Assembly: GCF_037975245.1 (NCBI RefSeq)
Contig: NC_092575.1
Location: 28,545,341 to 28,609,340 of the forward strand
DNA: 64,000 nt
Direction: 5' to 3'
From: Apostichopus japonicus
Lineage: Eukaryota > Echinodermata > Holothuroidea > Aspidochirotida > Stichopodidae
Below the pieces are notes generated by a model that was not told the origin of the DNA, did no database searches, and worked only from the letters and a program-made list of their open reading frames with translations. The position numbers and the translations under genes are program-made. This document shows positions 2,867-55,716 of the stretch, one piece after another (position 1 is the stretch's first letter; each line of letters starts with the position of its first letter).

Positions 2867-3315
2867 AACACATCATTGACTCAGCTAACACTAATTATAA
2901 CTCCAGCTTAGGATTGACGAACGTCTCCATATTAACTGGAAGAAGCCTAATCTGAACAAACTGCTTGATAGCCCGTTGTTAACACTGTTAAATTAAATCT
3001 ACTTTCACCTTGTGTTCTTGTTCCTATGTTACCCTTATTCGTTTATTATTAGTTCGTAAGCTGAAGATGATAGTAGTGACTCGCGACACATGTCTGTTTT
3101 CTAGTCTCACCCAAGCCCAACCATGGTTTGGGCTTCAAATGAAAAAAAAGGGGAATCTTCTTGGGGGCCCAAGTATATCCGGCTCAATTCTTATGTGGTT
3201 AACCAGTTAATTGGTCTATTTTAACCGGTTAAACCCGTTAGTGTATGGACAGTTAACCTTTTATTGACAACCGAAGTGCCCACCTGACTTTTTTTCTTGT
3301 AGAGCTAGGTAAGAG

Positions 3316-3580
3316 TCTACGGAAGCTTAAAAGTGTCACCAACATAAGAAAACTTTTCACCAATAAGTCAACATTTTTCAGTAATTTGTTAAGATATTTA
3401 CATAATATATTATCAAAAGTCAGAAAATTGTTCAATTGCTCAGTTAAAGCAACTGAGCAATCCAACATTTTTCTGATTTTTGATATGATATTATCTTGTT
3501 ATCTAACCAATTTACTGAAAAATGTCAACTTATGGGGCAAAGTTTTTCTTATGTTGATGGCACATTAAAGCTTCCGTAGA
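3316..3580. mobile_element. Hairpin MITE, TCTACGGAAGCTT ends (copy 1)
   Basis: A 265-bp element that is almost entirely an imperfect inverted repeat. It starts TCTACGGAAGCTT and ends AAGCTTCCGTAGA, and the arms stay complementary through AACATAAGAAAA, GACATTTTTCAGTAA-like and CAATTGCTCAGTT-like segments to the centre near 3440. No coding capacity. The same element is at 40924-41187, so it predates the duplication. Superfamily not determined. Confidence 0.75.
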
Positions 3581-3619
3581 GTCACACTCAAAGCACAATG
3601 CAATTAAAACACCAGCGCG

Positions 3620-4674
3620 CGTATGGAAAGCCATTTAAACATTTAATCGGGAATTTGAGATATCTTAAATTGTTGTTTTATTTTAGATATCTAAAATTCT
3701 ATTTCAGATATCTAAAATTAAATTCGAGATATCTGGAATTTAATTCGAGATATCTGAAATTTTATTTCATATATGAAATTGACTTCGAGATATCTAAATT
3801 AGATTTCGAGATATCTGAAATTCTAATTCAGATATCTGAAATTGAATTCGAGATAACTGAAATTCTATTTCAGATATCTTACATTCTAATTCGAGATATC
3901 TGAAATTGAATTCGAGATATCTGAAATTGAATTCGAGATATCTGAAATTGAATTCGATATATCTGAAATGCATATGCAGAAGTTCGTAAAATGGTGCGAA
4001 AATTAAGCTACAGCAAAGTGACAGTACAAAATGTACAAAGAGCTGCCATCGTCGCGTCGACGTATGGGTGGGATTGAATCTAGCTTGCTTGCTGGCTAAC
4101 GTTAGGCCTAGTATACATTATATGCATTTAAATAACTAGTTGTGAAATGAATTCGAGATATATGAAATTGAATTTTCGATATCTGAAATTGAATTTTCGA
4201 TATCTGAAATTGAATTTTCGATATCTGAAATTGAATTCGAGATATCTGGAATTGAATTCGAGATATCTGAAATTCTATTTCAGATATCTAAAATTGAATT
4301 CGAGATATCTGAAATTGAATTCGAGATATCTGAAATTCTATTTCAGATATCTGCAATTCCATTTCAGATATCTGAAATTGAATTCGAGATATCTGATATT
4401 CTATTTAAGATATCTGCAATTCTATTTCAGATATCCGAAATTGAATTCGAGATATCTGAAATTATATTTCAGATATTTGAAATAGAATTGCAGATATCTC
4501 GAATTCAATTTCAGATATCTGAAATTCTCTGGTATTTCGAGATATCTGAAATTTGCTTTAAGATATCTGCAATTATTTGTAGATATCTTAAATAAATTGG
4601 AGATATCTTTAATTTAATTTGAGATATCTGAAATTATTTCGAGATATCTGAAATTCCTCATTAAATGTTATAAA
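3620..4674. mobile_element. Foldback element made of palindromic GATATC repeats
   Basis: About 1.05 kb present only in copy 1. Most of it is a 20-21-bp repeat, variants of GAATTCGAGATATCTGAAATT, in which each unit is itself nearly self-complementary around GATATC. Many units carry both GAATTC (EcoRI) and GATATC (EcoRV). A non-repeat core lies at about 3976-4146. The outer ends are inverted (ACATTTAATCGGGAATTT on the left; complement ACATTTAATGAGGAATTT on the right), flanked by GCGCG on both sides. Copy 2 runs straight through ACACCAGCGCGCGAACG near 41220-41233 without it. The long SRYLKLN-type open frame is a by-product of the repeat. Confidence 0.7.
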
Positions 4675-5475
4675 AGCGCGTGCGAACGTTACTTCGATCC
4701 AAAGTGTAATACTCGTAGGGCTCCTTTCACCAGGTTGCTTCACGTATAGCCCACTTTTGTTTTTGTTAGGGTTAGGATTTGAGGATTTTGTTGGAGAGAA
4801 GGGAGCAGAAATTTAACCGAAAATAAAATTTTAGAAGTAATTTCAAAAACAGTTGTAGTAAAGGCCAGACGATGTGATCTACATTTTCTAATTTTACTTG
4901 ACAATAAAGTTTTGTCACCATGAAGTGAATGTGATGCATTATTAAAATATAGCCTCATTTTAATTTTATAATTTGCTTCACTGAACTAGTGATAGGGCAG
5001 TGGAGGCTTCACTGACCATGGTAGCGATGAGGCAGTGACGACGAAAGTTGTCAATGTCACACCTCCGTCGCCAGTTATTCAGTCGGGGCTTTTTACTTTC
5101 ATTCGGTGAAGAAAGAAAACAATCCTACCATAGCCGTTGTTAGAGACTATGGTTCTGACTATGGTAAGAGCCGTATGTACGGCTGTGACTCCTGCGACCT
5201 CAATTACGCCCTTACTACGCCCTTAATTACAGATCCAACGTGTGTCCACCCTCCCATTTATACCCTCACACAACAAACAACCAGTGCGTCTAGAAGACTA
5301 GACCTATTAAAGACCTACATTGTAGTGTAAATTATGCCTCAGAACGCTCAATTTGACGTCTTAGCGCGTTTTGTTCTTTTGGAGGAGGCCTGAGGCTCAC
5401 AGTCCCTACATATGGAAGACGTATTTAAGAACCAGGGCCACACGCCCCAATTTCTGAAATCATTAATCTACTTTT

Positions 5476-5973
5476 AGTATTCCTTGGAGCACTCTTTCTG
5501 AGGCCAAGCTTCAATTCTTTCAGTTTAGATTTCTGCACAGGATTCTAGGTACTAATAGACTTTTGTTTTTGATGGGGAAGTCGGAATCTCCACTGTGCTC
5601 CTTTTGCAAAATTAACGAAGAGTCAGTCGAGCACCTCTTCTGGGATTGCTACGTGACGGCAAATTTTATCCTTAATGCCGAAATACGTTTCTTAAATAAA
5701 CAATTCTTTTTCTCCAAACAAGATATCTTTTTTGGTTTTGGCAACGTTTACTGTCACCCTTACAACTTCTTAATTATCCACCTGAAGTATTATATTTTCG
5801 TATGCAAGACAAGCAACACCGAGCCAAATATCGATGATTTCTTTTATAAATTTAAATTTGCTTTGAGCGTCGAAAGTTTAAATTATTTTAAGCGAAAGCA
5901 GCCACGGAAAAATAAAGTGAATTTCCCGGATCTTAGAAATGCCTTTTCGTATTGTCCAAACCTGTTTACGTAG
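5476..5973 (+). pseudogene. LINE reverse transcriptase C-terminus with zf-RVT-type zinc knuckle
   Basis: The open frame reads IPWSTLSEAKLQFFQFRFLH onward through CSFCKINEESVEHLFWDC to a stop at 5971-5973. The C-x2-C...H-x4-C pattern followed by a basic tail is typical of the zinc-binding domain that closes the ORF2 of L1/Tx1-like LINEs. The frame is uninterrupted but has no endonuclease or RT catalytic domain because the copy is 5'-truncated, so it is a dead fragment. Its intactness suggests a fairly recent insertion. Clade assignment is tentative. Confidence 0.8.
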
Positions 5974-6156
5974 AAGTCTCTTATTTAGTTGTGTGTAGTG
6001 CAAATGGTTTCTTTTGCTGTCTACTTACATTAACTGATACTTACTGCAGTTGCTTGAATATGTAACAGACCATACCATTGTTGTTTATGCAATGTATAAT
6101 TTTTTTGTGTACCATGTTAAGTGATCGTGAATACATATGGAGGAGAAAAAAAAAAA
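5476..6156 (+). mobile_element. 5'-truncated LINE with 10-bp TSD and poly(A)
   Basis: A 681-bp non-LTR retrotransposon tail. It is flanked by the direct repeat ATCTACTTTT (5466-5475 and 6157-6166) and ends in an A-rich tail (6145-6156). Copy 2 has the uninterrupted empty site near 41990-42010, so the insertion postdates the duplication or was lost there. It carries the last 165 codons of the reverse-transcriptase ORF plus about 170 bp of 3' UTR. Confidence 0.88.
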
Positions 6157-6384
6157 ATCTACTTTTGGTCTCTCTAAAAAATGAGAATAATCAAACATTC
6201 CTTCAATGATCAGGGATGCGGGAGAAGCCTGCAAGGATTTATGGATTACAACTTTCATGACGGGTGGCTTCCAGTTCAACATTTTAACTCAAATTAGGAA
6301 TCTTTACAAATTTGTTATCAAGTCACTTCAGACGGGAAAACCGTAGATTGCTCTTGGATGAAAACTCACCTAAGGCCTACTATG

Positions 6385-6475
6385 ACCAGACCGAGGATCG
6401 AACCCCGAACCTCCCAGTTGCTATGCTTCATTGCTTCAAATGTCAGCGCCTTTATCCACTCGGCCACAGCACCGG
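6385..6475 (-). repeat. tRNA-derived repeat (SINE head or tRNA pseudogene), copy 1
   Basis: On the minus strand the sequence shows a Pol III A box (TGTGGCCGAGTGGAT, complement of about 6455-6469) and a B box (GGGGTTCGATCC, complement of 6395-6406) about 50 bp apart. The order and spacing match a class II (Leu/Ser-like) tRNA. The anticodon arm and acceptor stem do not fold convincingly and it sits in repeat-rich sequence, so it is a tRNA-derived SINE or pseudogene, not a working tRNA gene. The paralogous copy is at 42241-42330. Confidence 0.6.
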
Positions 6476-7089
6476 TCCGTACAAGATGGTGCTCGCACCT
6501 CCATCTTTTGGGACAGGGATTTAGCATCTACTCTATTGGCAAACAGCTGTTGGTAGGGTGGAGAGTACCAACCCCTGCACGCTAAATTTGCTCATGATGT
6601 CGCAATATTTACAGGTTTGTTTTGGCACTTCCAACTATTTGAATTCCAAGCTTTATATTTTCTCAGCCTTTAATTGCCTCCCCTCCCGACCAACCCTGGA
6701 AAAAACTCTGGTGCGACAACTGAGTCCAAGACTAGGATTGTTGCTGCAGTGGTGCCTTTGTCCCCTGCATTTGATCATTTTGCTACTTCCAAACTTCCAA
6801 AAGGATATTCCATTATGATTTAGTGAAAGACAGTGATTGATACTATATAACCGGTGAATGAATAGTTACTACTTTTAACCATTCACGTTGCGCTAAGAAA
6901 TCACTACTGTAGGTTAATGTCAAACAAGGCCTCGAGTTGAAATTAATCTTCAATAGTTGATGTTTGAATTAAAGTTGAAGCATTTTCATAATAAAGACAG
7001 ACAATGACTCTGATTAAATTAATTTTATGTTCTAACAGGGGTTTATTTCTACACCAAAAGAAATAGAAGTAAAGATGGAGAAAAGAAAA

Positions 7090-7290
7090 CATTTGATATA
7101 CCATTATGACTTACTGATAGACAGTTATTGATATACCACTATGAGTTACTGATATACAGTTATTTCTACAATATATAATACATTTGATATACTATTGACT
7201 TACTGAAAGTCAGTCACTGATATACCATTATGACTTACTGAAAGTCAGTCACTGATATACCATTATGACTTACTGAGAGACAGCTATTGT
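7090..7290. repeat. 35-bp tandem repeat, short version (copy 1)
   Basis: Degenerate units of ATATACCATTATGACTTACT plus AAAAGACAGTTATTG-like sequence. Only about five partly broken units are here; the paralogous array at 42983-43905 is far longer. Confidence 0.75.
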
Positions 7291-7312
7291 TATACAACAC
7301 CTGTTGTATAAA

Positions 7313-7463
7313 ACAAATAATGAATGGTTTCCATTCGTGCAATAGTGCAAATATTTCATGAGTTGAAAGATGTAATTTGTTCCTCGTTGAATGGAACAAA
7401 TTACATCTTTCAACTCATGAAATATTTGCACTATTGCACGAATGGAAACCATTCATTATTTGT
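7313..7463. repeat. Perfect 71-bp hairpin with 9-nt loop
   Basis: 7313-7383 is the exact reverse complement of 7393-7463; the loop is 7384-7392. The arms start ACAAATAATGAATGG and end AATTTGTTCC. A second small palindrome (TATACAACA-CC-TGTTGTATA, about 7291-7310) sits immediately to its left. Neither is at the matching place in copy 2. It is probably a hairpin-type mobile element or a fold-back rearrangement; no coding. Confidence 0.85.
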
Positions 7464-7472
7464 ATAATATTC

Positions 7473-7480
<8 letters not shown>

Positions 7481-7509
<29 letters not shown>
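7481..7509. repeat. (TA)n microsatellite
   Basis: An uninterrupted TA run directly right of the hairpin element. Confidence 0.9.
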
Positions 7510-7511
<2 letters not shown>

Positions 7512-7574
7512 TCATTGATTTAATTAACAGGGCACACTCCAAGTTGTTACCAAAATAATGCTAGCCAGCACCCT

Positions 7575-7627
7575 TCATGTTACTGACCGGCAGTAACACG
7601 CTACCACTAGCAGCCAGCTGTTACATG

Positions 7628-7663
<36 letters not shown>

Positions 7664-8880
7664 TAACTTTATTGCTCCAAATAAGGAAATTAGAGTCTCG
7701 CACATAAAAGTTCAAAACAGTACAAAAATATATGAGCAAAGGAAAATAAATCAGGATATATACAGATGGAGATAAAAGAATGAGAATGATAAACAGTAAG
7801 ACAAGGACAAGATAAAAGATTATTGCAACAGCCTAGCGACGTAAGTTGACATTGAAAAGTTTGATTGCACGGGGAGTGAACGAGTTACTATAGCGATTAG
7901 TTCTCGTGCACGGCTGTCTCAGTCTGCCATGATACCACTAGCAGCTACTGTAGCTGTAACATGCTACCACTAGCAGCTTGCTGTAACATGCTACCACTAG
8001 CAGTCAGCAGTAACATGCTACCACTAGCAGCCAGCAGTTACATGCTACCACTATAGCAGCCAGCAGTAACATGCTACCACTAGCAGCCAGCTGTAACATG
8101 CTACCACTTGCAGCCAGCTGTAACATGCTACCACTAGCAGCCAGCAGTAACATGCTACCACTAGCAGCCAGAAGTAACATGCTACCACTAGCAGCCATCA
8201 TTAACATGATACCACTAGAGGTTACACACTACCACTAGCAGCCAGCAGTAACACGATACCACTAGCAACCAGCTATAACATACTACCACAAGCAGCGAGC
8301 AGTAACATGCTACCACTATAGCAGCCAGCAGTAACATGCTACCACTAGCAGCCAGCTGTGACATGCTACCACTTGCAGCCAGCTGTAACATGATACCACT
8401 AGCAGCCAGAAGTTACATGCTACCACTAGCAGTAACATGCTACCACTATAGCAGCCAGCAGTAACATGCTACCACTAGCAGCCAGAAGTAACATGCTGTC
8501 ACTAGCAGCCATCATTAACATGATACCACTAGAGGTTACACACTACCACTAGCAGCCAGCAGTAACATGCTGTCACTAGCAGCCATCATTAACATGATAC
8601 CACTAGAGGTTACACACTACCACTAGCAGCCAGCAGTAACACGATACCACTAGCAACCAGCTATAACATGCTACCACAAGCAGCGAGCAGTAACATGCTA
8701 AAACTAGCAGCCAGCAGTAACATGCTACCACTATAGCAGCCAGCAGTAATATGCTACCACTAGCAGCCAGCTGTAACATGATACCACTAGCAGCTACTCT
8801 AGCTGTAACATGCTACCACTAGCAGCTTGCTGTAACATGCTACCACTAGCAGTAACATGCTACCACTAGCAGCCAATTAA
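7575..8880. repeat. 27-bp minisatellite, split by a LINE (copy 1)
   Basis: Units of ACATGCTACCACTAGCAGCC plus AGCAGTA, with variants in the last third (CAGCTGTA, TAGCAGC insertions), at about 7575-7627 and 7929-8880. Some blocks repeat as higher-order groups (for example 8510-8590 and 8575-8650). The open frame on the minus strand (MAASGSMLLLAASGS type) is a repeat by-product. The paralogous array at 44326-44735 is shorter. Confidence 0.85.
7628..7928 (-). mobile_element. CR1/L2-like LINE 3' end inserted in the minisatellite
   Basis: Minus-strand reading from 7928 gives GRLRQPCTRTNRYSNSFTPR and AIKLFNVNLRR then stop (7833-7835). RTNR..NSF.P.AI.L.N is the usual last block of many CR1/L2-type LINE ORFs. 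It is followed by about 170 bp of 3' UTR and a terminal (CTTA)n microsatellite (plus strand AAGT repeats, 7628-7664), as is common for 3' ends of this group. It interrupts the 27-bp array and is absent from the copy 2 array. Confidence 0.75.
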
Positions 8881-9448
8881 GTGATGATACCTAATATGTG
8901 AAGTTACTATTTCAAGATATAACTAGAATCTATCCATATACAGGACTCATTTTAAAGAAAATATTAAGGTTGTCCTTTGTCCTATTTGGTTACCCAAAGG
9001 ATTTTTTGGTTGTCCAAATGAAAGCACCAAATATACTACTGGAGTTGCCCGACGTGGTACATTGCACACATCGTGTGCACTAAAGTTACTTAATATATGA
9101 CCAGGGACTATAATGTTAGTTACGTACATCCCGCGGTTATCCAACATTTGGATTTTTAAAGAGCCTTGCGCCAGAGCCATACGTAAGTAATACTACAAGA
9201 TATCGATATAGCCTTGTAGGTGAGCACCGTAACATTAGGCTGCACAGGCCTAGTCTATCGGCCTGAGGCTTAAGTCAAGTACTCCTTACGGAGATTGACT
9301 TTTTGAATATTTTTGATAGAACTGTAGTGTACAGCGTCCAAACCTTCATCTCCGGCATACATTTTGAAGGAAGCAAACTCCAAATACACCCACAGCTAGG
9401 CCTATGGAAAACATACAATCTTTTGGATTAATATATTTCTTTCTTTTG
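8881..9448. other. Shared single-copy stretch, no gene seen
   Basis: Aligns with 44740-45307 of copy 2 with small differences. Short open frames on both strands are not kept between the copies, so I see no gene. Confidence 0.5.
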
Positions 9449-10185
9449 AAAAACCACAACTTCTTCTGAAAAGAACCAAAATTCTAATCATTTGATCAGA
9501 TGTTTGAATTTGTTTGAAAACAAGCAAACCAGAACAATTACCAACTGCAAGTACAGAGATACAACAATTCCATTACAGAGATTTTCATGCTAAAAATAGT
9601 GGAATGGGGGTTTCCAAATTTCATTTCATTTGATTGGCTAATAGCCCTTACCATTGTGTACAAGCATTCTTGCATCTATAATGCTCAATGTATACAAAGG
9701 GTGTTGTTTAAATGCAACTTATTGTAACTATGGTAACTAGTCTATGGCAAACTGTCCGCTTCAGAATTTGACAATAATTTTGTTGTTGTTTACTAGTTAC
9801 AGCTTTCATCATTTTCAAAAACCACAACTTCTTCTGAAAAGAACCAAAATTCTAATAATTTGTACAGGTGTGTGAATTTGTTTGCAAATAAACAAGCCAG
9901 AACAATTACCAACTGCAAGTACAGAGTTAACAACATTTCCATTACAGAGATTTTCATGCTAAAAATAGTGGAATGGTGGTTTCTAAATTGCATGTCATTC
10001 CATTGGCTAATAGCCCTTACCATTATCTGCAAGCATCTATAGTTCTCAATGTATACAAAGGGTGTTGTTTAAATGTAAGTCCCTGTAACTATGGTAAGTA
10101 GTTTTACTGCAAACTTTCCGCTTCACAATTTGACAATAATTTTTTTTTGTATACTAGTTACAGCTTTCATCATTTGATTTATTTG
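9449..10185. repeat. 368-bp sequence present twice in tandem (copy 1)
   Basis: ACCACAACTTCTTCTGAAAA recurs at 9453 and 9821, and the following roughly 365 bp are the same apart from substitutions and small indels. The doublet is also in copy 2 (45309-46020, spacing 367), so it predates the segmental duplication. No function recognised. Confidence 0.8.
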
Positions 10186-10210
10186 TGCACATTATCACTA
10201 TAGGCTTCTG

Positions 10211-11472
10211 TTGCACATAAGCCAATGGTTGTGTCAAGGGTCATAATAACTATGTATTGTGCGTTCCCGTAGAGGTATTTTAAAGTGCACATAAGCCAAT
10301 GGTTGTGTCAGGGATCACAATAACTATGTATTGTGCGTTCCTGTAGAGGTATTTTAAAGTGCACATAAGTCAATGGTTGTGTCAGGGATCATAATAACTA
10401 TGTATTGTGCGTTCCCTTAGAGGTATTTTAAAGTGCACATAAGCCAATGGTTGTGTCAGGGATCATAATAACTATGTATTGTGCGTTCCCGTAGAGGTAT
10501 TTTAAAGTGCACATAAGCCAATGGTTGTGTCAGGGATCATAATAACTATGTATTGTGCGTTCCCGTAGAGGTATTTTAAAGTGCACACAAGCCAATGGTT
10601 GTGTCAAGGGTCATTATAACTATGTATTGTGCGTTCCCGTAGAGGTATTTTAAAGTGCACACAAGCCAATGGTTGTGTCAAGGGTCATTATAACTATGTA
10701 TTGTGCGTTCCCGTAGAGGTATTTTAAAGTGCACACAAGCCAATGGTTGTGTCAGGGATCATAATAACTACGTATTGTGTGTTCCCGTAGAGGTATTTTA
10801 AAGTGCACACAAGCCAATGGTTGTGTCAGTGATCATAATAACTACGTATTGTGTGTTCCCGTAGAGGTATTTTAAAGTGCACACAAGCCAATGGTTGTGT
10901 CAGGGATCATAATAACTATGTATTGTGCGTTCCCGTAGAGGTATTTTAAAGTGCACACAAGCCAATGGTTGTGTCAAGGGTCATTATAACTATGTATTGT
11001 GCGTTCCCGTAGAGGTTTTTTAAAGTGCACACAAGCCAATGGTTGTGTCAGGGGTCATAATAACTATGTATTGTGCGTTCCCGTAGAGGTATTTTAAAGT
11101 GCACACAAGCCAATGGTTGTGTCAGGGATCATAATAACTACGTATTGTGTGTTCCCGTAGAGGTATTTTAAAGTGCACACAAGCCAATGGTTGTGTCAGG
11201 GATCATAATAACTACGTATTGTGTGTTCCCGTAGAGGTATTTTAAAGTGCACACAAGCCAATGGTTGTGTCAGGGATCATAATAACTATGTATTGTGCGT
11301 TCCCGTAGAGGTATTTTAAAGTGCACACAAGCCAATGGTTGTGTCAGGGATCATAGTAACTATGTATTGTGTGTTCCTGTAGAGGTATTTTAAAGTGCAC
11401 ACAAGCCAATGGTTGTGTCAGGGATCATAGTAACTTTGTATTGTGTGTTCCTGTAGAGGTATTTTAAAGTGC
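10211..11472. repeat. 74-bp tandem array, about 17 units (copy 1)
   Basis: The unit GTGCACATAAGCCAATGG...GAGGTATTTTAAA repeats with exact 74-bp spacing (for example 10285, 10359) up to 11469. Units fall into variant classes (CACATAAGCC against CACACAAGCC; AGGGATCAT against AAGGGTCAT) occurring in runs, suggesting amplification of multi-unit blocks. Copy 2 has one unit at 46069-46145. Confidence 0.92.
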
Positions 11473-11474
11473 AT

Positions 11475-12770
11475 GTGTAAGACAAGATGTGATAAACTTT
11501 ATGAAACCCCACAAAGGGTAAGTGAATGCTCGCATAAAAACAGTATTACACAAATACAAATATACTAAAAAAGACAAGGCCAAGGTTGGCTGACTTTCCC
11601 CGATTAAGTGACTTTCCTGTCTGATCATAGCTTCAATACGATAAGTAACTTCCAATCTAGCATTGCCACCCATGACACCAAATTATATTGCAAAACACCA
11701 CAAATGGTAGAGTCATAAAACATGGAAAGAATGTTATTATTGACATTAAACTTATCCATCATACGCAGGCAATGCATCCTAGAATTTAGTTTCTTCATTA
11801 AAATATCTACATGGTCATATCAGGCAAGTAGATTATTTATAACCACCCGAGATATTTATAATTATCTACCCTAACAACAATACTTCCTTTAATAATGACA
11901 TCATTTAATACCCCTTTGGACTTCCGAAAATCATTCACCATTTCTTTTGTCTTATTAATATTGAGTTCTAGAAAATTTTGCTCACAGTAATTTATCTGTT
12001 CTAGGTAGGCAGTATCATCATCCTTTTGTTATCAAACCCAATAAGGCAGCATCATAAAGTGTAACTATTGAGCATTTTTCATGATTTGCCCTTGCATCTG
12101 ATGTATACAGAGGGAATAAGAATGGTGCTAAAACCTTACCTTGTGGGGTGCCAGTATTTGATATAATAACCTTGGATGTGCTATAAGATGTTCTAATATT
12201 GAATCCACCCAATTAAATCAGGGCATACGTTCATTTCTAATAACTTATTGACTAAACTGTGGGGCTGAATAGTGTTAAAAGCAGATGAAAAATAAAAAAA
12301 ACATACCCTAGCAGAAAATTTGTATGTTCAAGATGTCAATACAGTTTTTTGAGACAGAATAAAATAGCATCCTCCGTACTACGCTTAGACCTGTATGCAA
12401 ACTGAATCAGATCTAAATATTGGTCCACAATGGGTTTTAAAAACTTAAGAGCCAGATGTTCACATGTTTTCATTGCCACTGAGGTCAGTGCTACAGGTTT
12501 TAAATCATTCATACAATTTATATTAGGGTTTTTGGGGTATAGGAATAATGCATGATCGGTTCCATACAGTTGGTATTGTCATGGTACTAAATGAAAGATT
12601 AAAAATAATTGCAAATATATTGGTTGCTACCCATCTGGGCCAGAAGCCTTTGGTGAATTTAGTTTGGAGAACTCATGACGTACCTCATCAGCAGTTACAG
12701 TTAAAAACGGAGCAGGATATGTCCCGTGACTGGATAATTAATTATGCATGATTAATAACTTTAGATTATG
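11475..12770 (-). pseudogene. LINE reverse transcriptase pseudogene (CR1/Rex1-like), copy 1
   Basis: Minus-strand pieces match a non-LTR RT: NDLKPVALTSVAMKTCEHLA and YRSKRSTEDAILFCLKK (about 12335-12515, RT motifs before the catalytic core), then SNTGTPQGKVLAPFLFPLYT (about 12105-12150, the PQG block), and further downstream RLEVTYRIEAMIRQESHLIG-type C-terminal sequence (11480-11670). Frameshifts and stops break the frame and the YADD-type motif is degraded (LYDAALLG). Rex1/CR1 affinity is judged from motif wording. It lies just 3' of the START gene and is paralogous to 46146-47410, so it predates the duplication. Confidence 0.75.
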
Positions 12771-12788
12771 TATAAGCTAGCCATCAGT

Positions 12789-12963
12789 CTACATGAACTG
12801 CATGTAAGGTGGTTGGCCAACAACATCCTGCATTATTGGGATGGCTCGGCCCAAGGCGATCATCCGTCGTACCATGTGCTCCATCTGGCTCCCTGGTCCC
12901 GTTTTACCAATTGTGCCCTTCATATCTACTTTAGAAACAAACTCCTCCACATGGACGACATCC
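12789..12963 (-). CDS. START gene copy 1, exon 6 (last)
   Basis: Encodes residues 189-246 and the stop (12789-12791). The acceptor is TCTCTTCCAG. Its first base completes the split codon 189 (TG+G, Trp). Contains VEEFVSKVDMKG and the C-terminal helix that closes a START pocket. Confidence 0.82.
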
Positions 12964-39770: not shown

Positions 39771-39772
<2 letters not shown>

Positions 39773-39774
39773 AA

Positions 39775-42240: not shown

Positions 42241-42330
42241 CCTGGGATCGAACCCCGAACCTCCCAATTGCTAAGCTTCATTGCTTGAAATGCCAGCGCC
42301 TTTATCCACTCGGCCACAGCACCGGTCCGT
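42241..42330 (-). repeat. tRNA-derived repeat, copy 2
   Basis: Paralogue of 6385-6475 with the same A box (GTGGCCGAGTGGAT) and B box (GGGGTTCGATCC) on the minus strand. Confidence 0.6.
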
Positions 42331-44325: not shown

Positions 44326-44735
44326 TGCTACCACTAGCAGTAACACGCTACCACTAGCAGCTAGCAGTAACATGCTAACACTAGCAGCCAGCTGTAACAT
44401 GCTACCACTAGCAGCCAGCAGTTACATGCTACCACTAGCAGAAACATGCTACCACTATAGCAGCCAGCAGTAACATGCTACGTCTAGCAGCCAGAAGTAA
44501 CATGCTACCACTAGCAGCCATCAGTAACATGATACCACTAGCAGTTACACACTACCACCAGCGGCCAGCAGTAACACGCTACCACTAGCAGCCAGTTGTA
44601 ACATGCTACCACAAGCAGCTAGCAGAAACATGCTACCACTAGCAGCCAGCAGTAACACGCTACCACTAGCAGCCAGTTGTAACATGCTACCACAAGCAGC
44701 GAGCAGTAACATGCTACCACTAGCAGCCAGCAGTA
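44326..44735. repeat. 27-bp minisatellite (copy 2)
   Basis: The same ACATGCTACCACTAGCAGCC-type units as 7575-8880, with fewer repeats and no LINE inside. Confidence 0.85.
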
Positions 44736-45308
44736 ATAGTGGTGATACTTAATATGTGAAGTTACTATTTCAAGACATAACTAGAATCTATCCATACACA
44801 GGACTCATTTTAAAGAAATTATTATGGTTGTCCTTCGTCCTATTTGGTTACCCAAAGAAGTTTTTGGTTGTCCAAATGAAAGCACCAAATATACTACTGG
44901 AGTTGCCCAACGTGGTACATTACACACATATTGTGCACTAAAGTTACTTAATATATGACCAGGGACTATAATGTTAGTTACGTACATCACGCGGTTATCC
45001 AACATTTGGATTTTTAAAGTGCCTTGCGCCAGAGCCCTACCTAAGTAATACTACAAGATATCGATTTAGCCTTGTAGGTGAACACTGTAACATTAGGCTG
45101 CACAGGCCTAGTCTATCGGCCTAGGCTCAAGTCTAGTACTCTTACAGAGATTGACTTTTTCAATATTTTGACAGAACTGTAGTGTACAGCGTCCAAAACC
45201 TTCATCTCCGGCATAAATTTTGGAGGAAGCAAACCCCAAGTACATGCACCCACAGTTAGGCCTATGAAAAACATACAATCTTTTGGATGAATATATTTCT
45301 TTCTTTTG

Positions 45309-46020
45309 AAAAACCACAACTTCTTCTGAAAAGAACCAAAATTATAATTATTTGATCAGATGTTTGAGCTTGTTTGCAAACAAACAAACCAGAAAAATTA
45401 CCAACTGCAAGTACAGAGTTAACAACATTTCCATTACAGAGATTTTTATGCTAAAAAAAGTCAATGGTGGTTTCCAATTTTCATGTCATTTGATTGGTTA
45501 TAGCCTTTACCATTGTCTACAAGCATTCTTGCATCTATAGTGCTCAATGAAAACAAAGGGTGTTGTTTAAATGCAACTACTTGCAACTATGGTAACTAGT
45601 CTACCGCAAACTGTCTGCTTCAGAATTTGACAATAATTTTGTTGTTGTATACTAGTTGCAGCTTTCATCATTTTCAAATACCACAACTTCTTCTGAAAAG
45701 AACCAAAATTCTAATACTATGTACAGGTGCTTGAATTTGTTTGAAAATAAACAAGCCAGAACAATTACCAACTGCAAGTACAGAGTTAACATTTCCATTA
45801 CAGAGATTTTCATGCTAAAAATAGTGGAATGGCAGTTTCCAAATTTCATGTAATTTGATTGGCTAATAGCCCTTACCATTGTCTGCAAGCATCTATAGTT
45901 CTCAATAAAGACAAAGGGTGTTGTTTAAATGCAACTACTGTACTTGTAACTTGTCTACCGCAAACTTTCCGCTTCAGAATTTGACAATAATTTTTTTTTT
46001 TTTGTATACTAGTATGCAGC
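45309..46020. repeat. 367-bp doublet (copy 2)
   Basis: Paralogue of 9449-10185: ACCACAACTTCTTCTGAAAA recurs at 45313 and 45680. Confidence 0.8.
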
Positions 46021-46068
46021 TTTCATCCTTTGATTTATTTGTGCACATTATCACTATAGGCTTCCGTT

Positions 46069-46145
46069 GCACACAAGCCAATGGCTGTGTCAGGGGTCAT
46101 AATAACTACATATTGTGTGTTCCCGTAGAGGTATTTTAAAGTGCA
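46069..46145. repeat. Single unit of the 74-bp repeat (copy 2)
   Basis: One unit only (CACACAAGCCAATGGCTGTG...GAGGTATTTTAAAG), compared with 17 tandem units in copy 1. Confidence 0.88.
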
Positions 46146-47410
46146 TGTGTAAAAGAGATCAACTTTATGAAAACCCACAAAGGGTACTCGCAAAAAAACA
46201 GTATTATACAAATACAAATATACTAAAAAGGACGAGGCCAAGGTTGGCCGACATTTCCCGACTAAGTGACTTGCATGTCTGATCATAGCTTACAATAAGT
46301 AACCTCCTTTCTAGCATTGCCACCACATGAAACCAAATTATATTGCCAAACACCACAAATGGTAGAGTTAAAAAACATGGTAAGAATGTTATTATTGACA
46401 TTAAACTTATCCATCATACGCGGACAATGCATCCTAGAATTTTTCTTCATTAAAATATCTACATGGTCATATCAGGCAAGTTGATTATTAATCACCACCA
46501 GAGATATTTATAATTATCTACCCTTCCAACAATACTTCCTTTAATAATGACATCATTTAATACCCCTTTGGACTTCCAAAAATCAATCACCCTTTCTTTT
46601 GTATTATTAATATTGAGTTCTAGAAAATTTTGCCCACAGTAATTTATCTGTTCTAGGTAGGCAGTATCATCATCCTTTTGTTATCAAACCGAATAAGGCA
46701 GCGTCATAAAATGTAACTATTGAGCATTTTTCATGATTTGCCCTTGCGTCCGATGTATACACCAGCATTTGATGTAATGACCTTGGATGTGCTATTAGAT
46801 GTTCTAATATTAACATACTGTGAACTATTGGTAAGATAATTATAAATTCACCCAATTAAATCAGGGCTTACGTTCATTTCTAAAACCTAATTGACTAAAC
46901 TGTGGGGCTCAATAGTGTTAAAAGCAGACGAAAAATGTAAAAAATATACCCTGGCAGAAAATTTGTATGTTCAAGATGTGAATACAGTTTTTTTGAGACA
47001 GAATAAAATAGCATCCTCCGTACTACGTTTAGACCTGTACACAAACTGCATCAGATCTAAATATTGGTCCACAATGGGTTTTAAAAACTTAAGAGCCAGA
47101 TGTTCACATGTTTTCATTGCCACTGAGGTCAGTGCTACAGGTTTTAAATCATTCATACAATTTATATTAGGGTTTTTGGGGTATAGGAATAATACATGAT
47201 CGGTTCCATACAGTTGGTATTGTCATATATATGGTACTAAATGAAAGATTAAAAATAATTGCAAATATATTGGTTGCAACCCATCTGGGCCAGAAGCCTT
47301 TGATGAATTTAGTTTGGAGAACTCATGATGTACCTCATCTGCAGTTACAGTTAAAAACGGAGCAAGATATGTCCTGTGACTGGATAATAAATTATGCCTG
47401 ATTAATAACT
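46146..47410 (-). pseudogene. LINE reverse transcriptase pseudogene (CR1/Rex1-like), copy 2
   Basis: Paralogue of 11475-12770. It retains NDLKPVALTSVAMKTCEHLA and KRSTEDAILFCLKK (46980-47156), YTSDARANHEKCSIV (46690-46760) and a C-terminal block with FVVFGNIIWFHVVAMLERRL (46270-46380). The PQG block seen in copy 1 is deleted here. Broken by frameshifts and stops. Confidence 0.72.
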
Positions 47411-47426
47411 TTAGATGTATCAGCTA

Positions 47427-47498
47427 GCCATCAGTCTACATGAACTGCATGTAAGGTGGTTGGCCATCAGTCTACATGAACTGCATGTAAGGTGGTTG
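47427..47498. repeat. 36-bp direct duplication across the START stop codon (copy 2)
   Basis: GCCATCAGTCTACATGAACT and the next 16 bp occur twice in tandem (47427-47462, 47463-47498); copy 1 has one. On the minus strand the gene uses the first-encountered stop (47472-47474), so the protein end is unchanged and the extra copy lies in the 3' UTR. Confidence 0.85.
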
Positions 47499-47646
47499 GC
47501 CAACAACATCCTGCATTCTTGGGATGGCTCGGCCCAAGGCGATCATCCGTCGTACCATTTGCTGCATCTGGCTCCCTGGTCCCCTTTTACCAATTTTGCC
47601 CTTCACATCTATTTCAGAAACAAACTCCTCCACATGGACGACATCC
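47472..47646 (-). CDS. START gene copy 2, exon 6 (last)
   Basis: Residues 189-246 and stop. The split codon GG+G gives Gly189 where copy 1 has Trp. Acceptor TCTTCCAG. Confidence 0.82.
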
Positions 47647-50600
47647 CTGGAAGAGAGGGAAACAATATGTCTCAAATTAGGCTTCAATCGGAAAATTGAA
47701 AATTCACTTTCACAGGGAAATGTAGAGTAAGTTCAGGATGTTAGTTGTCCTTACTAACATCGCCTATTTTTAACTTTATTTTCAGGACTACAAAATCTTG
47801 TCTGATCCACATGCCAATAACACATGTATCTGCAGTTCCAGTTTTGTGCAGGACAATTACACCTGTTGTTGTAGTTTTCTAAAAGCAGGCAAATGTCAAA
47901 TGACACTGGCAAGGGCGGCGGAAGCACTTTTAATCTGGGGGGGCACCAACGTCGAAGGGTACTTTGCAGAAATTCGATTGGACTGATGCAGCCTGATATT
48001 TAGTACCCTTTATAACTCTTATTGCATTATCTTATTGCGTATACACATCACTCCATCAACGCCCCCCCCCCCCCCCCCCCTCAAGGAAACAATGCATACT
48101 AGCACTGCAATATCTAATGTGCAAATTGGGAAACAAGGAACAAGTTTTCTTCAAGACAAGATGAGGTGAAATCATTATAAAGTCCAAGTCCCTGCACACG
48201 CGATCGATACATGCATGAAAGCAAATGAAATATGTCAAAATACGAAAGGATGGGGTAGGTTAAGGGATATTAAAGCTATACTCATTATTCATAGTAGGCT
48301 ATAAATGGCTTCTGCTTTTTACAAAGTCACAATGTTCTATAGCAAGGCATTTTTGGAAATGCATTAGGATTTTGTTGGCAAATTGAATATATGCATAATG
48401 GCACTCACCACAATGTTAGAAGCCTTGTGGTAGTAAACTTATAGGAGGCGGGGGGGGGGGGGCGCCCACCCAAAATTTTTGTGAAAATTCGGGCAATATG
48501 CTGAGAATTTTTCGGGCACCTACTGAAAGAAAAATAATTTGCTATGTGTTTTTCAATGGTTAAACTATTATGATCATTATTATTGTAACGACTTTCCCAA
48601 TAATTCTAACCAATATGCAAGGGTATAACACAGCAAATGATTGTATGTTATTGGCATGCAATGTAATAACCGACGCCTGCCTATTTGATATGCATATTAA
48701 CATGGTGAACGCGCGCGGAGCGCAAAAAATTTGGTAATACTTTTTCGGGCAATTCGTTATAGCCCCCAAAATCAAAGTGGGCTCCTACGCCTATGGAAGT
48801 AAACATTTAAAACTTTCCGAAATATTGCATTCGACGTGGGTTTCGCATAGTAAACTCTTTTTTTTATTTAGAAATTTTTATGTAGAAAAAGGGCACATTT
48901 TTAACCTGAGGAAAAGTGGGGGGGGCACGTGCCCCCTGTGCCTCCCCGGTTCCGCCGCCCTTGGACACTGGCTAGTGAGAGCTGCCATCTTCTGAGGTGA
49001 TTGAAAGGAGGCAGTCTAATCAAAATGAGCTGTTAAAGACCTTTAACATACATAAAACAAAACAGCTTACCCTTCTTGCTCAAGGTAAAGACCTGCTAGT
49101 GGAATATCTATTCTGTAAGCATCATCTTTAGGAGGATGAGAAGGATGCTCAATTGATTTTATCCCCGCAATAGCCACGTTGCTTGTCGGTATTTTCACTG
49201 CTGCCAAAACTAAACTATCTCGTGCTGCTACATTGCAACAACAGAGGACTTGCGCTGGGATATCTTTGTAAGCTACAATAGCTCCCTATGTTGAAAAATA
49301 TCAAAAAAGTATAAAATAGAAGAAGAAAAATAACCATATACACTACTGACTCACTTCATGGACAATTTTATTTATAACAATTCTAGGAGACCAAAACACA
49401 TCAGCTCTAATCTGCTAGTTTTAGCTACAACGTTATCACAAGTCTTTCATATTCAGAGTAGATAGACATGCATTATTTACATATATTGTTAACAGTTCCC
49501 CAGTTCAGGGTCCAATGGTTTTAAGTTTCCATTTATGCTTTAATTTGGTTAACAGTGCAGTGTATAGTGTCTGTATAATTCACAGATATTGAGAAGAATG
49601 AAACGTAAACAGTTGAATGCTCTGGTCACAAGTAAACAGTAGCATGCTGTAGTTATGTATGGTTGACGATATGAAGAAGTCTCTTAAGTACTTGCCTGAA
49701 TATTCTGACCTCAAATGTTTCAACAGTCTTTCTTAACGGGGGTCAGATTATACAATATTGCATGTATTGTAAAAAAACTGCAAATGTTGCTTTAAAGGAT
49801 GACACGATGATAGTGTATACTATTTAAGAGCAGTGCATGTTTCAATATAGGTTGCAATGGTAATGTACAGTATTTAAGAGCAGTTGTTTTTATATATGTA
49901 GGTTACAATGATAGTGTATACTATTTAAGAGCAGTGCATGTTTCTGTATTGGTTACAAAGGTAATGTACAGTATTTAAGAGCAGTTGTTTTTATATATGT
50001 AGGTTACAATGATAGTGTATACTATTTAAGAGCAGTGCATGTTTCTATATAGGTTACAATTGTAATGTATAGTCAGTTGGGGTAAAAAAAAACAAGGGGG
50101 TAGTTGGGGTAAAATCAACAACCCCTTTTTATAGAAGGGGAATATTTAGCCAAAGTTCCAATTTATTTTGGGTGATAGTCCTATATGTCTAGTTTATTAT
50201 TATATAATTTCTGGAACTCTATGTCACTTCGCTGCCAGTCACCGCTTAATCAAATCAAGCAAATGCTAAACCAGCAAAATTTGAAGTTTGTACCACATAT
50301 ATCCAAAACTTTCTCCTGCATACCCAGCTTATATGATGTGGAGATTATTCCAGCAGTTACAGCATAGCAGTTAGTGATATTACACTCCCCCATGGTAGAA
50401 TTACTCCAACTTCATTCATGCTTCATGGGGGGGCCTTGTTTTATTTTACCCCCAAAAAATGATGTGAATGGGGTAAAAAAAAACAAGTACTCTCCGGCTG
50501 CATTGTACTCCCTATTTTGCCCGAATGGATAAATTTTTCCATAATGTTGATTTTAGAGGTTAGGCAAATAGTTTTCATGTCTGTCATGTGTCAAAAATGT

Positions 50601-53600
50601 TAAATAATTGGGCAGAAGTGTTTCTACTACATTACACCACATTTGTTTAGCATCATATACACACTGTACAGTATGAATATGGCTGAGCATGACATATGAC
50701 ACGAGCCATCCATAATTAAGAATTAAGACAATTTCACAATTTTTTTCCTTTTTCATGTAAAGGTAGTAGTTCATACTTAGATGTAATTATATGCAAACAT
50801 GATTTTAAGATACATTCATGAAGAAAATAGCTGTTTTCTAGCATTGTTTTTTCTTACCCCGGCATTGTTTTTTTTACCCCAAATTAAACAAATTTTGGGG
50901 GTAAAAAAAAAAAAAAAATTTTTCGCAAAAAACGACACTTTCCATTTACAAAAAAAGGTATCTTTGTTAGATTCTCTTTAAGAGAATCCCACTCCACACA
51001 CTTGAACATTGGAACCGAAACAACACCTCTTACTCATCAATTTTTAGAGCAAACTTTAGGTAAATTTTTTTTTTACACCACTTGACTATACAGTATTTTA
51101 TCCCCGCAATAGCCACGTTGCTTGTCGGTATTTTCACTGCTGCCAAAACTAAACTATCTCGTGCTGCTACATTGCAACAACAGAGGACTTGCGCTGGGAT
51201 ATCTTTGTAAGCTACAATAGCTCCCTATGTTGAAAAATATCAAAAAAGTATAAAATAGAAGAAGAAAAATAACCATATAGGTAAATTTTTTTTTTACACC
51301 ACTTGACTATACAGTATTTAAGAGCAGTTGCATGTTTCTAAATATGTAGGTTACAATGATAGTGTTTACTATTTAACAGCAGAGCATGTTTCAGTATAGG
51401 TTACAATTGTAATGTATAGTATTTAAAAGCAGTTGCACGTTTCTATATATGAAGGTTACAATGATATACTATTTAAGAGCAGTGCATGTTTCAGTATAGG
51501 TTACAATGGTAATGTACAGTATTTAAGAGCAGTTGCATGTTTCAATACATGTAGGTTACAATGATAGTTTATACTATATTAGAGCAGTTGTATTTTTCAA
51601 TATATAGATAACAATGATAGTTTACAGTATTTAGGAGCAGTTGTTTGTATGTGATAGTGGATATTTTCATTGAGCACACAAATACAATGTAGTAATCGTC
51701 GATTGTCGTTGTATCACCCAGAACCAACACATAGAGACCACAGTATCTGATCAGATAAGCTATAAATTTAACTATTTTGAAACTGTTAGACTGAGCCATG
51801 TTCATTTGACATTAAAAAACCTTGATTCCAGTAAAATATTGTTAGTTTGTTACTCCATAACTTCTAAACCGTACAGTACAGTAAGAGCTTCTAGTATTTA
51901 ATTCGATAATTCAAAAATATTCAAATACATTAAAACATAAGGTAGTGGACTCCCTGGTCTTCTTTCACACTCTTTGGCCTATGATATACATTGGTTAGAA
52001 TAGTCGCTAATACTGTTGCCATCTACCTGGGCTACACATAGTTAATGAGAAGCTCACCAGTCAAGTCAATTTGACCTAATTCTCATAACAGGTTCCCATA
52101 AATCCATTGTTTTTTGGTAACTTTTAATTAACATGCAAACAAAGTGTTCTCTTAGCTTACCCCTCCAAGACGTTCAACTATCTGAGTGTTACCTCCGTCC
52201 CTTTCCAGCATATTTCGGAAACCGAATGGTGGGGTTAGTAAATACACTAACACCTTCTCGAGGGGAGCAGTAATATCGATTTTCAGCCTCATCCTGTAAA
52301 TAATATATAATTAGAGGTGCAGAGAGAAGAACACAGAGTTAATATAACACCCACAGGGGAAGCAAATTAAGGCACTTAAGACCATCTGAGCAATGCCAGG
52401 AGGGTATCTTAGTAAGGAGTGATGGGTTAGGTTATACTGTAAACCATCTCAGTAAGGAGAGATGGGTAGTCTAGCTTGCATGAGCATATCTTGACTTTGC
52501 ATTGGTACAGCTGACAACCTGACAAAATGTACATGCACTGTTCAAGGAAGTTCCGGAACTAAGAATGACTTACATTTTACTTTCACTGAACATTGTACTT
52601 TCACTGTAGTGATTAATGCTGACAACCTGACAAAATGTACATGCACTGTTCAAAGAAGATCCGGAACTAAGAATGACTTACATTTTACTTTCTTTCACTG
52701 AACATTGTACTTTCACTGTAGTGATTAATGCTGACAACCTGACAAAATGTTCATGCACTGTTCAAAGGAGGTAAACTAAGAATGACTTACATTTTTCTTT
52801 CACTGTTGTACGATCCTTTGCATGCCTGTGTCAAACAAAAGAAAGCAAGTAAAAGAAAGACAATTAAAGCAATATCAAGTAAAACGTATAAAGAGAAAAA
52901 AACAGGTACATCATGCATACTACAGTAAGCAACTATACCCACTGCTATGGTACATCATTGTATGATAATGAAAAGAAAAAAGGTTACCAAGCTTTGATGT
53001 AAAGTGTGTAGCCTTAAACTGTGTGTACACAGCTAGGTAGTGTGAGATTTGATTGCTCTAGTAGGAACATTTACAATTACATGAGTAATGCAACTACTTG
53101 AATTAATACTTAAAACTGCAATCAGGTAAAGCAAAGATTGTTGATCAGCACAATCTTGTCCAATTAATCATTTTTTTTATCTTTGCTTTGCAATGCTTAT
53201 GCATGCTCATGATTTATAAACCTTTGAAGGAATTGTCTGGTGTGGAAGTTTTTCCTTGTAGATCTCATTTTTCTCTTTGTAACCATGGCCAAATTTTTCC
53301 CCATTCAACGTTTTCTTCTTGTAGAAATCGGGTTTTCAAATTCACCAATTTCTCACCAAAAGCACCGTTGTTCAAACGCATCAATTTGGTGATTGACGTA
53401 GCTATGCCTATTTGCCTAAATGTGCAGGCAAATAGGCCAAACGAGGGACTTGATGTTAGCACTCCTATTTCCGTAGTAAATACACTCTTGTGTGTACAGG
53501 TGATTGACTATTATATATTACGTGTACATCGCGAACGTACATACTGTATACAGCCTACCATGTCCAATTTGGTGATTGACGTAGCTATGCCTATTTGCCT

Positions 53601-55489
53601 AGTGCAGGCAAATAGGCAAAACGAGGGACTTGATATTAGCACTCCTATTTCCGTAGTAAATACACTCTTGTGTGTACAGGTGATTGGCTATTATATATTA
53701 CGTGTACATCGAGAACGTACATACTGTATACAGCCTACCATGTCCAGTTGGTATACATACTTTGCGTTGTACATAATACACTCTCACACTCAAACAACAG
53801 TTTATAAACTGTTCTTTGAAATTGCTGAAATAAAATTCACAGATCAACTTTACATTAAAAGGACACTTGAAAAGTATTCGGAACACCGAAAGATGAATCT
53901 TGAGGGAATCGATATCAGAGCAGAATGCAGTACCGAGAAGCTTAGGCTTCGCAGAACTGTACGATTGTAAACCTTAGAGTAACCTACATGCGAACATTCT
54001 TCGCGTTGAAGCTGAATAGCGTGATGTATAAACAACGAAGCGTCTGCTGTTAAAACTTATCTTACAGTATGTTACACAAAGACCACGAAACCACCGATCT
54101 ACTACATACTGTATATGGCATAGTATCACATATATGTACCTAATTTATAAGAAATTTCACCGAAAATTAAGGAAGAAATTTATCTGTATACAAACCTGGT
54201 TTTTGTTGTGATTACTGTAGGTATATACTGTAGGGAGCATGGCTTATATATATTGCAATATCTACGTTTGCGAAAATGATGTCACTGTTCGTTAATGTTC
54301 AAATCATATTTGAAGTGTCCATCCTTAACGATTAAAAAATTGTTTCTCTGTCAAATGCAACATTAACATTCTCAAACTTTGACTGTTTGGAAAATGATTT
54401 ATTGTATTTCAAGGTAACTTACATAACCAGACAATCCTTTTAAGTTGATTTTCACCAGCTTTTGGAGGCAGTTACAGTAACTTGGGTAATAAATTAACAC
54501 ACAGTCACTTCTGAGCACCACAGAAAACAATAGTAAACCTAGACAGTTAAATATTATGGAATACTCACAGGAGCACCAAATTGTTTTTTGTACTGCCTGA
54601 AGGACCAAGCACTTTCATTGAGAGTATGTAACTCCTCCACCTGGTGTATAAGACTTGCAACTTCTTGACCTCTTGAAAACTGACCTGTAGTTCCAGAGAA
54701 ACCATATTTAGCATCTGACTGGTCAATGGCACTAACTGAGTCTTAAAGGGAAAGAAGAAAAATTATGGATAAAAATGCTGAAAAGATACTTACAAAGAAA
54801 ACAGTTCACAGTTTTAGAACAATATCATACTAGTACTTGAATATATAAGTATTTCTATCATTGAATTAGGTGGTTGTAAGATGAAACGTATCCTTCTAGT
54901 ATAGTTACTTAGTAATACTACTGTAACATACATTTATTTACATTAGCAAAGCTGGATTTCCAGATGTTGGTCATTTGACTTCTGAATGTAAGATTTATCC
55001 ACTTGCAAAAATATGACATACTGTATGTTGACAAAACTGAGTGAAGGGACACTGCACCTATATGAAAATCATTGCCAAAGTGTTATCAACAACACAGAGC
55101 TCAGTGTACAGGGCTGAGTAGTCATAGGTGGAGTTAATAATTGCTTAAACTAGTGAAAGCAAAATCACTTTTAATTGAAGTGTGAAAATTGCTGTGAGAA
55201 ACAGAGAAATAGCTGAAAAGTGCTGCAGCTAGTATCACGAGTTTCCCACTGGTTCCGGCCAACTTGACGGCCCTCGATCTGTACCCTAATCGAAATGTCT
55301 TCCCCTCGCACAATTAGAAGTGCCCTGATTTTAATGACTAGCCTAGGTTTAATATTTGAACGCTATTGCTATCAAGTCCCTAAGTATCACATTGCACAAG
55401 CTAGGCTACGTACTTTACAGTAGCATTTATCTAACGTTGGCTAAGCTGTCCTAGATTTACACTATGGTGGGAAACTCACATTTCTCCAT
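47472..55489 (-). CDS. START-domain lipid transfer protein, copy 2 (six exons, 246 aa)
   Basis: Coding exons in transcript order: 55480-55489, 54569-54741, 52791-52825, 52161-52293, 49071-49285, 47472-47646. Exon lengths (10, 173, 35, 133, 215, 175 nt), phases and splice sites are the same as in copy 1, with no premature stop. By my count the protein differs from copy 1 at 24 of 246 positions, several clustered in the C-terminal half (W189G, K200E, M203V, T206K, T210R, I232R) and near the exon 2 end (E57Q, C58F). All START landmarks are kept (ARDSLVL, SIEHPSHPP, YRIDIPLAGLYLE, VEEFVSEIDVKG). The same 246-aa reading frame surviving in both copies argues both are or were recently functional. 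Intron 5 has gained a hAT-like element and intron 4 a TATA-flanked element plus a pasted exon fragment. Confidence 0.82.
47910..48963. mobile_element. hAT-like element, 8-bp TSD GACACTGG, in intron 5
   Basis: 1054 bp, ends CAAGGGCGGCGGAA / TTCCGCCGCCCTTG (same family as 31424-32085, opposite orientation), perfect GACACTGG duplications (47902-47909, 48964-48971). Copy 1 has the empty site at 13221-13228. It contains a further nested block (about 48441-48795) with AGGAGGCGGGGGG and CTCCTACGCCTATG ends that also occurs inside composite element 3 (38436-38863). No transposase frame seen. Confidence 0.9.
49071..49285 (-). CDS. START gene copy 2, exon 5 (core)
   Basis: Residues 118-188 plus two bases; same splice sites as copy 1. 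The first part of this exon in transcript order, with its acceptor and flanking intron (49156-49340), has been copied exactly to 51095-51279. Confidence 0.85.
49805..50071. repeat. Intronic minisatellite (copy 2, left part)
   Basis: Same 50/55-bp unit as 13815-14572, interrupted at 50072 by a TATA-flanked insertion. Confidence 0.8.
50072..51307. mobile_element. TATA-flanked element with GGGGTAAAAAAAAACAA motifs
   Basis: TATA is on both sides (50068-50071, 51308-51311). Ends are imperfectly inverted: GTCAGTTGGGGTAAAAAAAA on the left, complement GTCAAGTGGTGTAAAAAAAA on the right. Inside, GGGGTAAAA(A)n CAA or its complement recurs (50081, 50107, 50435, 50470, 50851, 50872, 50897). The right end is duplicated around a pasted 185-bp exon fragment. 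No coding frame; superfamily unknown. Confidence 0.6.
51095..51279. repeat. Exact copy of part of START exon 5 and flanking intron
   Basis: 185 bp identical to 49156-49340, same orientation: 130 bp of exon 5, its acceptor and 55 bp of intron 4. Flanked on both sides by a 41-bp direct repeat (51058-51098, 51279-51319). A 4-5-bp match (ATTTT) lies at the left junction. On the minus strand the acceptor is intact, so it could be used as a decoy exon. Confidence 0.9.
51312..51655. repeat. Intronic minisatellite (copy 2, right part)
   Basis: Continuation of the 50/55-bp array; degenerates toward 51655. Confidence 0.8.
52161..52293 (-). CDS. START gene copy 2, exon 4
   Basis: Residues 73 (part) to 117; differs from copy 1 by P102L, S107G and I109T. 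Confidence 0.8.
52791..52825 (-). CDS. START gene copy 2, exon 3 (35-nt microexon)
   Basis: Identical in sequence and splice sites to 18184-18218, although the flanking intron has had local repeats gained or lost (the GACAACCTGACAAAATG block is present three times here, twice in copy 1). Confidence 0.78.
53382..53747. repeat. 183-bp tandem duplication in intron 2 (copy 2)
   Basis: CAATTTGGTGATTGACGTAG recurs at 53382 and 53565 and the two 183-bp units are nearly identical; copy 1 has one unit. Because 183 is divisible by three, a plus-strand open frame (53188-53970, 260 codons) survives across it. In copy 1 that frame is broken, so I do not treat it as a gene. Confidence 0.85.
54569..54741 (-). 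CDS. START gene copy 2, exon 2
   Basis: Residues 4-61; differs from copy 1 by T7S, F9I, V14A, S45N, L51F, E57Q and C58F. Acceptor TTTAAG, donor CCT/GTGAGT. Confidence 0.8.
55480..55489 (-). CDS. START gene copy 2, exon 1 coding part
   Basis: ATG GAG AAA T before GTGAGT, as in copy 1. Confidence 0.72.
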
Positions 55490-55716
55490 TTTCAATCCCG
55501 TGAGAAAAGTCTAATCTAACAGAGCCCAGAGCGGTTACTACTAATACTAGTATGTACAAAGATGTATGTGTAGAGCTCGGATGTGCTGATGGAACTCTGT
55601 TCTTGACAGCCAAAACCGAATATGTTTACTTGAGTTATAGATGTCTCAGTTCTGCTACACAGGGATCACGTTCGGGTTCCAAGTTGGTGTGCGATATAAA
55701 TAGCGATGACGAAATA
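55490..55716 (-). promoter_or_regulatory. Conserved 5' flank of START gene copy 2
   Basis: Nearly identical to 21038-21265 up to the duplication border; unrelated sequence follows. Presumed 5' UTR/core promoter. Confidence 0.45.

Follow-up and report, generated by a model that had tools for sequence, protein, structure and literature searches.

A probable young segmental duplication of a six-exon gene with a remotely START-like product in Apostichopus japonicus

A stretch of 64,000 nucleotides from the genome of Apostichopus japonicus (C15:28,545,341-28,609,340, hereafter the window) contains two similar segments, each with the exons of one gene, and raises the question of whether these are truly two loci, what kind of protein their genes encode, and how selection has acted on them after duplication. 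We compared the segments by self-BLAST of the window and searched for homologs of the genes in the whole genome (671.6 Mb, 35 contigs).

Extent and Flanks of the Duplicated Segments

Self-BLAST recovered two collinear repeats in direct orientation, copy A at positions 2867-21265 (18.4 kb) and copy B at 40051-55716 (15.7 kb), the latter sitting ~35 kb from the former on the same contig. The spacer between them (21266-40050) measures 18,785 bp, and the segmental duplication proposed in a sequence-only reading, with direct, non-adjacent and collinear copies of 16-18 kb and an 18.8-kb spacer, was thus borne out by the self-alignment as well as by the flanks. Gaps left out, A and B are ~93% identical over the ~11.3 kb that align (88.7-96.4% in 13 single blocks set by hand), and the remainder of each copy consists of unshared sequence, i.e., minisatellites and insertions. 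Segmental duplications are defined as stretches of at least 1 kb with 90% or more identity, and the pair as a whole exceeds both values. Like a typical segmental duplication with a paralogous gene pair, it has more than 10 kb aligned at this identity, on one contig, in direct orientation and with the copies separated; it is unusual solely in its excess of replacement over silent changes (see below).

Four flank comparisons within the window, in which the left flank of A comprised only 2.9 kb, yielded merely dispersed repeats or nothing, and no collinear homology. A and B thus have distinct flanks, one of the two features, next to full read depth, by which non-allelic copies would be recognised. 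The spacer itself carries oppositely oriented repeat copies close to both of its ends (22098-24118 and 37749-39688).

Noncoding divergence within the gene amounts to 4.8% (164/3,385), which is compatible with a recent duplication, as had been proposed. Very heterozygous animals can reach noncoding divergence of ~4.8%, and the observed value is therefore not beyond that of two diverged haplotypes of one locus which an assembly artefact had set in series. Duplication errors giving rise to false gene gains have moreover been described as widespread in assemblies (PMC9516828). Serial placement of haplotypes is nevertheless disfavoured because the flanks show merely dispersed repeats or nothing, unlike its prediction; furthermore, A and B contain insertions that they do not share, and their divergence differs by gene half (53/603 vs 103/2771, P = 9e-7). 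A haplotype artefact behind A and B is hence unlikely, and we assign it only a very slight probability. A and B are most probably a segmental duplication of young age, and the product of the copied gene is probably START-like at a remote level.

Gene Structure

Each copy holds one gene of six exons and 246 codons plus stop, which lies on the minus strand, a detail omitted in the sequence-only reading. The gene escaped motif and splice scans on both strands; its exons were first spotted by eye in translated open stretches common to A and B. Four of them were set by their splice sites, and the microexon and the first coding exon were settled via a homologous locus on another contig (C13, see below). 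In gene A (minus strand), the coding part of exon 1 (21028-21037, 10 nt) encodes MEK plus one base and is followed by exon 2 (19827-19999, 173 nt), the microexon 3 (18184-18218, 35 nt; ACKGSYNSERK), exon 4 (17637-17769, 133 nt), exon 5 (13322-13536, 215 nt), which holds the most STARD10-like stretch, IEHPSHPPRDD, and exon 6 with the stop codon (12789-12963, 175 nt). The corresponding exons of gene B (minus strand) are located at 55480-55489 (coding part), 54569-54741, 52791-52825 (a microexon with zero differences from that of A), 52161-52293, 49071-49285 and 47472-47646 (with the stop codon). All six lengths, which sum to 741 nt, and all exon phases are the same in A and B, and the GT/AG splice sites are conserved.

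The assigned exon 1 is the sole ATG-to-donor pair common to A and B that passed the filters, and at the C13 locus a 10-nt MEK exon with a GTGAGT donor is one of two candidates with a strong donor. The microexon has a 35-nt counterpart there (HCIASYNEERK), and direct splicing of exon 2 to exon 4 was ruled out by the matching 35-nt microexon in A, B and C13. The acceptor of exon 4 is ambiguous in both copies, with a second in-frame AG 6 nt downstream (two residues) that fits better to C13. The two intact six-exon genes with frames of 246 codons that had been described were hence confirmed, with equal lengths and phases, retained GT/AG sites and the same model in an independent paralog.

Only B contains a partial copy of exon 5 (51095-51279, minus strand; 185 bp, 100% identical to 49156-49340), which sits in the intron before exon 5 and comprises the acceptor and 130 nt of the exon. 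Translated from its acceptor it reaches a stop; it is a possible splicing decoy and, if spliced in, would probably break the product. At ~47437-47474 (minus strand), directly behind its stop codon, gene B repeats the last part of its coding sequence as a short tandem copy, which is absent in A. Other open reading frames shared by the copies (e.g., 12406-12552 and 18544-19047) were rejected as genes, lying within or overlapping dispersed repeats, and the weak sub-threshold Pfam matches of such repeat-borne frames were set aside (e.g., RNB, E 0.0056; DUF267, E 0.01).

A Third Member of the Family

The C13 locus (C13:22409296-22413487; L005) is a third gene of the family and has 45% amino-acid identity to A. 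Its six exons correspond to those of A and B, down to the microexon of 35 nt and the first coding exon of 10 nt (MEK); it encodes 250 codons plus stop, and three of its exons differ in length from those of A and B, by 12, 3 and 3 nt. Identical residues number 222/246 between A and B, 111/245 aligned between A and C13, and 113/245 aligned between B and C13; the C13 gene is the older paralog of A and B. When the four exons set by splice sites were compared with the genome at the protein level, 13 matches resulted at E <=10, distributed over copy A (4), copy B (4), the partial exon in B, and C13 (4, with 38-46% identity). With the C13 protein there were 14 matches, 13 of them within the A, B and C13 genes and the partial exon, and a single stray at E 1.5. 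No family members beyond A, B and C13 were found in these genome protein searches.

Probable Relationship to START Proteins

The sequence-only reading had classified both genes as START-domain genes. Pfam-A contained no family matching the A and C13 proteins, or the A and B proteins without exons 1 and 3, at E <=10, and a Pfam search of the six frames of 40801-55702 found none at E <=5. The START model PF01852 is thus without a match to the product at E <=10, and the A and C13 proteins stay below its gathering score. The same model finds 4 places elsewhere in the genome at E <=0.001 and 11 at E <=10, and none of the ten candidates scored genome-wide lies in the window.

Profile methods point to a remote similarity. 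When a profile of A, B and C13 was compared with 177,635 PDB sequences, the sole matches at E <=10 were STARD10 (E 0.15) and STARD6 (E 1.2). Alignment by hhalign with a four-sequence START alignment covered residues 98-209 with a score of 43.3 (P 7.4e-6, probability 84%); none of 200 column shuffles reached this score (best 23.4), and the reversed alignment gave 10.8. A START profile built from four proteins placed C13, B and A at the top of 303 sequences (E 0.0002, 0.0013 and 0.0079, respectively), the best of 300 shuffled sequences having E 0.1. Homology to known START proteins is therefore detectable by hhalign, the PDB profile search and the START profile.

The product of 246 amino acids is similar in size to START proteins such as PCTP/STARD2 and STARD10. 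Profile-profile alignment with PCTP spans 107 columns (residues 98-209), the RD motif included, with 16% identity over the aligned stretch, and no counterpart of the PCTP WD can be made out by eye in the A/B product. The HPKYPPRKD of STARD10 aligns with the segment HPSHPPRDD of the gene A product. An ACOT11/12-like identity, considered in view of exon 5, was unsupported, the PDB matches being STARD10 and STARD6 only. A remote START relationship of the product is thus likely, although not proven, and the earlier classification stands as remote profile similarity (hhalign, PDB) but not as a Pfam match.

Repeats, Insertions and Junctions

The introns had been described as rearranged by many insertions, and the differences between A and B indeed comprise minisatellite expansions, with units of 21, 35, 27, 74 and ~50-105 bp, as well as insertions that the copies do not share. 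Intron 4 of A contains, at 14600-16400, part of an A-only dispersed-repeat insertion identified by self-BLAST and genome search, whose family members occur on many contigs and reach 97% identity (40 candidates scored). Repeats shared by A and B likewise have many copies elsewhere (18625-19697 and 11600-12746), as does the stretch 6216-6477. A 74-bp minisatellite array at 10212-11473 has ~17 units in A and one or two in B. Judging by eye, open frames at 36005-37336 (minus strand) and, in an A-only stretch, at 5467-5970 (plus strand) resemble pieces of non-LTR retroelements, and a 251-codon open frame at 63248-64000 (minus strand), which continues past the edge of the window, resembles the end of a retroelement integrase.

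The right junction of B (55716/55717), read from the sequence, is situated inside a 10-bp perfect inverted repeat (within 55699-55727) with arms at 55699-55708 and 55718-55727. Because the outer arm (55718-55727) is missing in A, B may be the derived copy. This end of the duplicated unit precedes the ATG by 228 bp in A and by 227 bp in B, and within the duplicated part, ~210 bp upstream of the ATG, both copies have a TATA-like element (TATTTATA; minus strand, 21244-21251 in A and 55695-55702 in B), which represents a putative piece of the core promoter. As the copied unit stops just past this element, A and B probably have a common core promoter and different upstream regulatory DNA.

Divergence of the Coding Sequences

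A and B differ at 28 bases of the 741 coding nt, which change 25 codons, 24 by replacement and one silently; three of the replacement codons carry two differences, and each of these may conceal a silent step. Pairwise maximum likelihood over the 741 nt gave an omega of 2.19, with 2dlnL of 2.01 against omega 1 (P ~0.16), 8.35 against 0.5 and 16.6 against 0.3, so that for the whole gene omega 0.5 is rejected and omega 1 is not. The NG86 method on 690 nt gave a dN of 0.047 and a dS of 0.023. Amino-acid constraint, for which a dN/dS comparison of the 246-codon frames had been proposed as a check, was thus not borne out.

The frames themselves have fared differently. Noncoding DNA in and beside the gene contains 28 indels in 3,385 positions, and ~6 would be expected at this rate in the 741 coding nt, where there are none; selection has therefore probably kept the frames. 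The empirical P of zero indels is 0.002 if both copies had been free and ~0.05 if one had been free. These noncoding blocks, like those behind the noncoding counts for the two gene halves below, were chosen by hand, with minisatellites and unaligned parts left out and dispersed repeats shared by A and B kept. Of the earlier statement that both copies are under constraint, the part concerning the reading frames stands, whereas no such constancy is seen in the amino-acid sequence (24 replacement codons to one silent).

An alternative is functionless drift of one copy or of both, as a young pseudogene that is still open by chance. Omega near or above 1 agrees with it, and so does the divergence of exons 1-4 (omega 1.06; 13/351), which equals that of their introns (103/2771 in local noncoding DNA, P = 1.0). 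Because the excess of the whole-gene omega (2.2) over 1 is not significant, neutral drift with luckily intact frames is still compatible with the data. The partial exon 5 copy of B, with its acceptor intact in the intron preceding exon 5, points in the same direction. When we simulated 28 random changes in each copy (20,000 runs per copy), at least one stop arose in ~69% of the runs, leaving a chance of ~0.31 for none; among the runs without stop, at most one silent-only codon was seen in 0.4-0.5% and at least 24 replacement codons in ~7%. Against drift stand the lack of indels, the lack of stops and the retained GT/AG sites in both copies, and the changes also avoid positions at which the older paralog agrees: of the 24 amino-acid differences, 6 fall where one copy equals C13, compared to 45-46% expected (P 0.025-0.033). 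Those six can be polarised, four being A-derived and two B-derived, and replacements on both copies are in turn what loss of function would allow. Taken together, we regard a pseudogene as unlikely.

The 3' part of the gene suggests the opposite reading, a stronger form of the account that we favour below, namely that positive selection drove the pair apart, above all in exons 5-6. All 15 differing bases of these exons lie in replacement codons, omega tends to infinity and 2dlnL against omega 1 is 5.53 (P ~0.02), adding to the ratio of 24 to one over the whole gene. However, the split into exons 1-4 and 5-6 is post hoc, P in the whole-gene test is ~0.16, and a silent step may be concealed in each of the three codons with two differences. 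Exons 5-6 are, furthermore, less diverged than the local noncoding DNA (15/390 vs 53/603, P = 0.003), and because the latter diverges more, silent sites appear to be slow here rather than replacement sites fast. Positive selection of this kind is conceivable, but we consider it doubtful.

Noncoding divergence near exons 5-6 (8.8%) exceeds that near exons 1-4 (3.7%; P = 9e-7). The fall, from 12750-13741 to 17410-21265, has the form that a converted 5' half would give, and gene conversion over this half is one possible cause of the uneven divergence.

Evolution and Meaning of the Gene Pair

The account we favour, and regard as probable, is that of a true duplication in which both copies of a gene for a START-like product are in use, with frames kept under relaxed or diversifying selection. 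A segmental duplication would have placed the second six-exon gene copy at a distance of ~35 kb on the contig of the first. As predicted from sequence, the product may be a divergent START-like protein with a helix-grip fold and a hydrophobic pocket, and hence a putative binder or carrier of a lipid-like ligand. Both copies would then have stayed in use with their frames maintained, and under relaxed or diversifying selection replacements would have piled up mostly where the residues of A and B already differ from C13. The A/B pattern agrees with such relaxation or diversification once the gene had been duplicated and is not that of strongly conserved proteins.

A more specific version, in which a START-like family divergent enough to be past the reach of Pfam has a fresh pair that was positively selected apart at the C-terminus, in an early split of ligand specificity, is speculative and on the present sequences would be rather improbable. 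If true, C-terminal positive selection together with separate upstream DNA would mean that a split in ligand specificity has been caught early.

Among the papers listed by keyword searches, no study on this START-like gene family was apparent. The case is mostly one of ordinary gene duplication. Young duplicates with frames kept and more replacement than silent changes are nevertheless well suited to following the divergence of gene copies, and the C13 gene, an older paralog of equal exon structure, serves as the outgroup. As the copied unit reaches only slightly past a possible core promoter, coding and regulatory divergence could be tested jointly in this pair, which also illustrates that a standard domain model can miss remote START-like genes.
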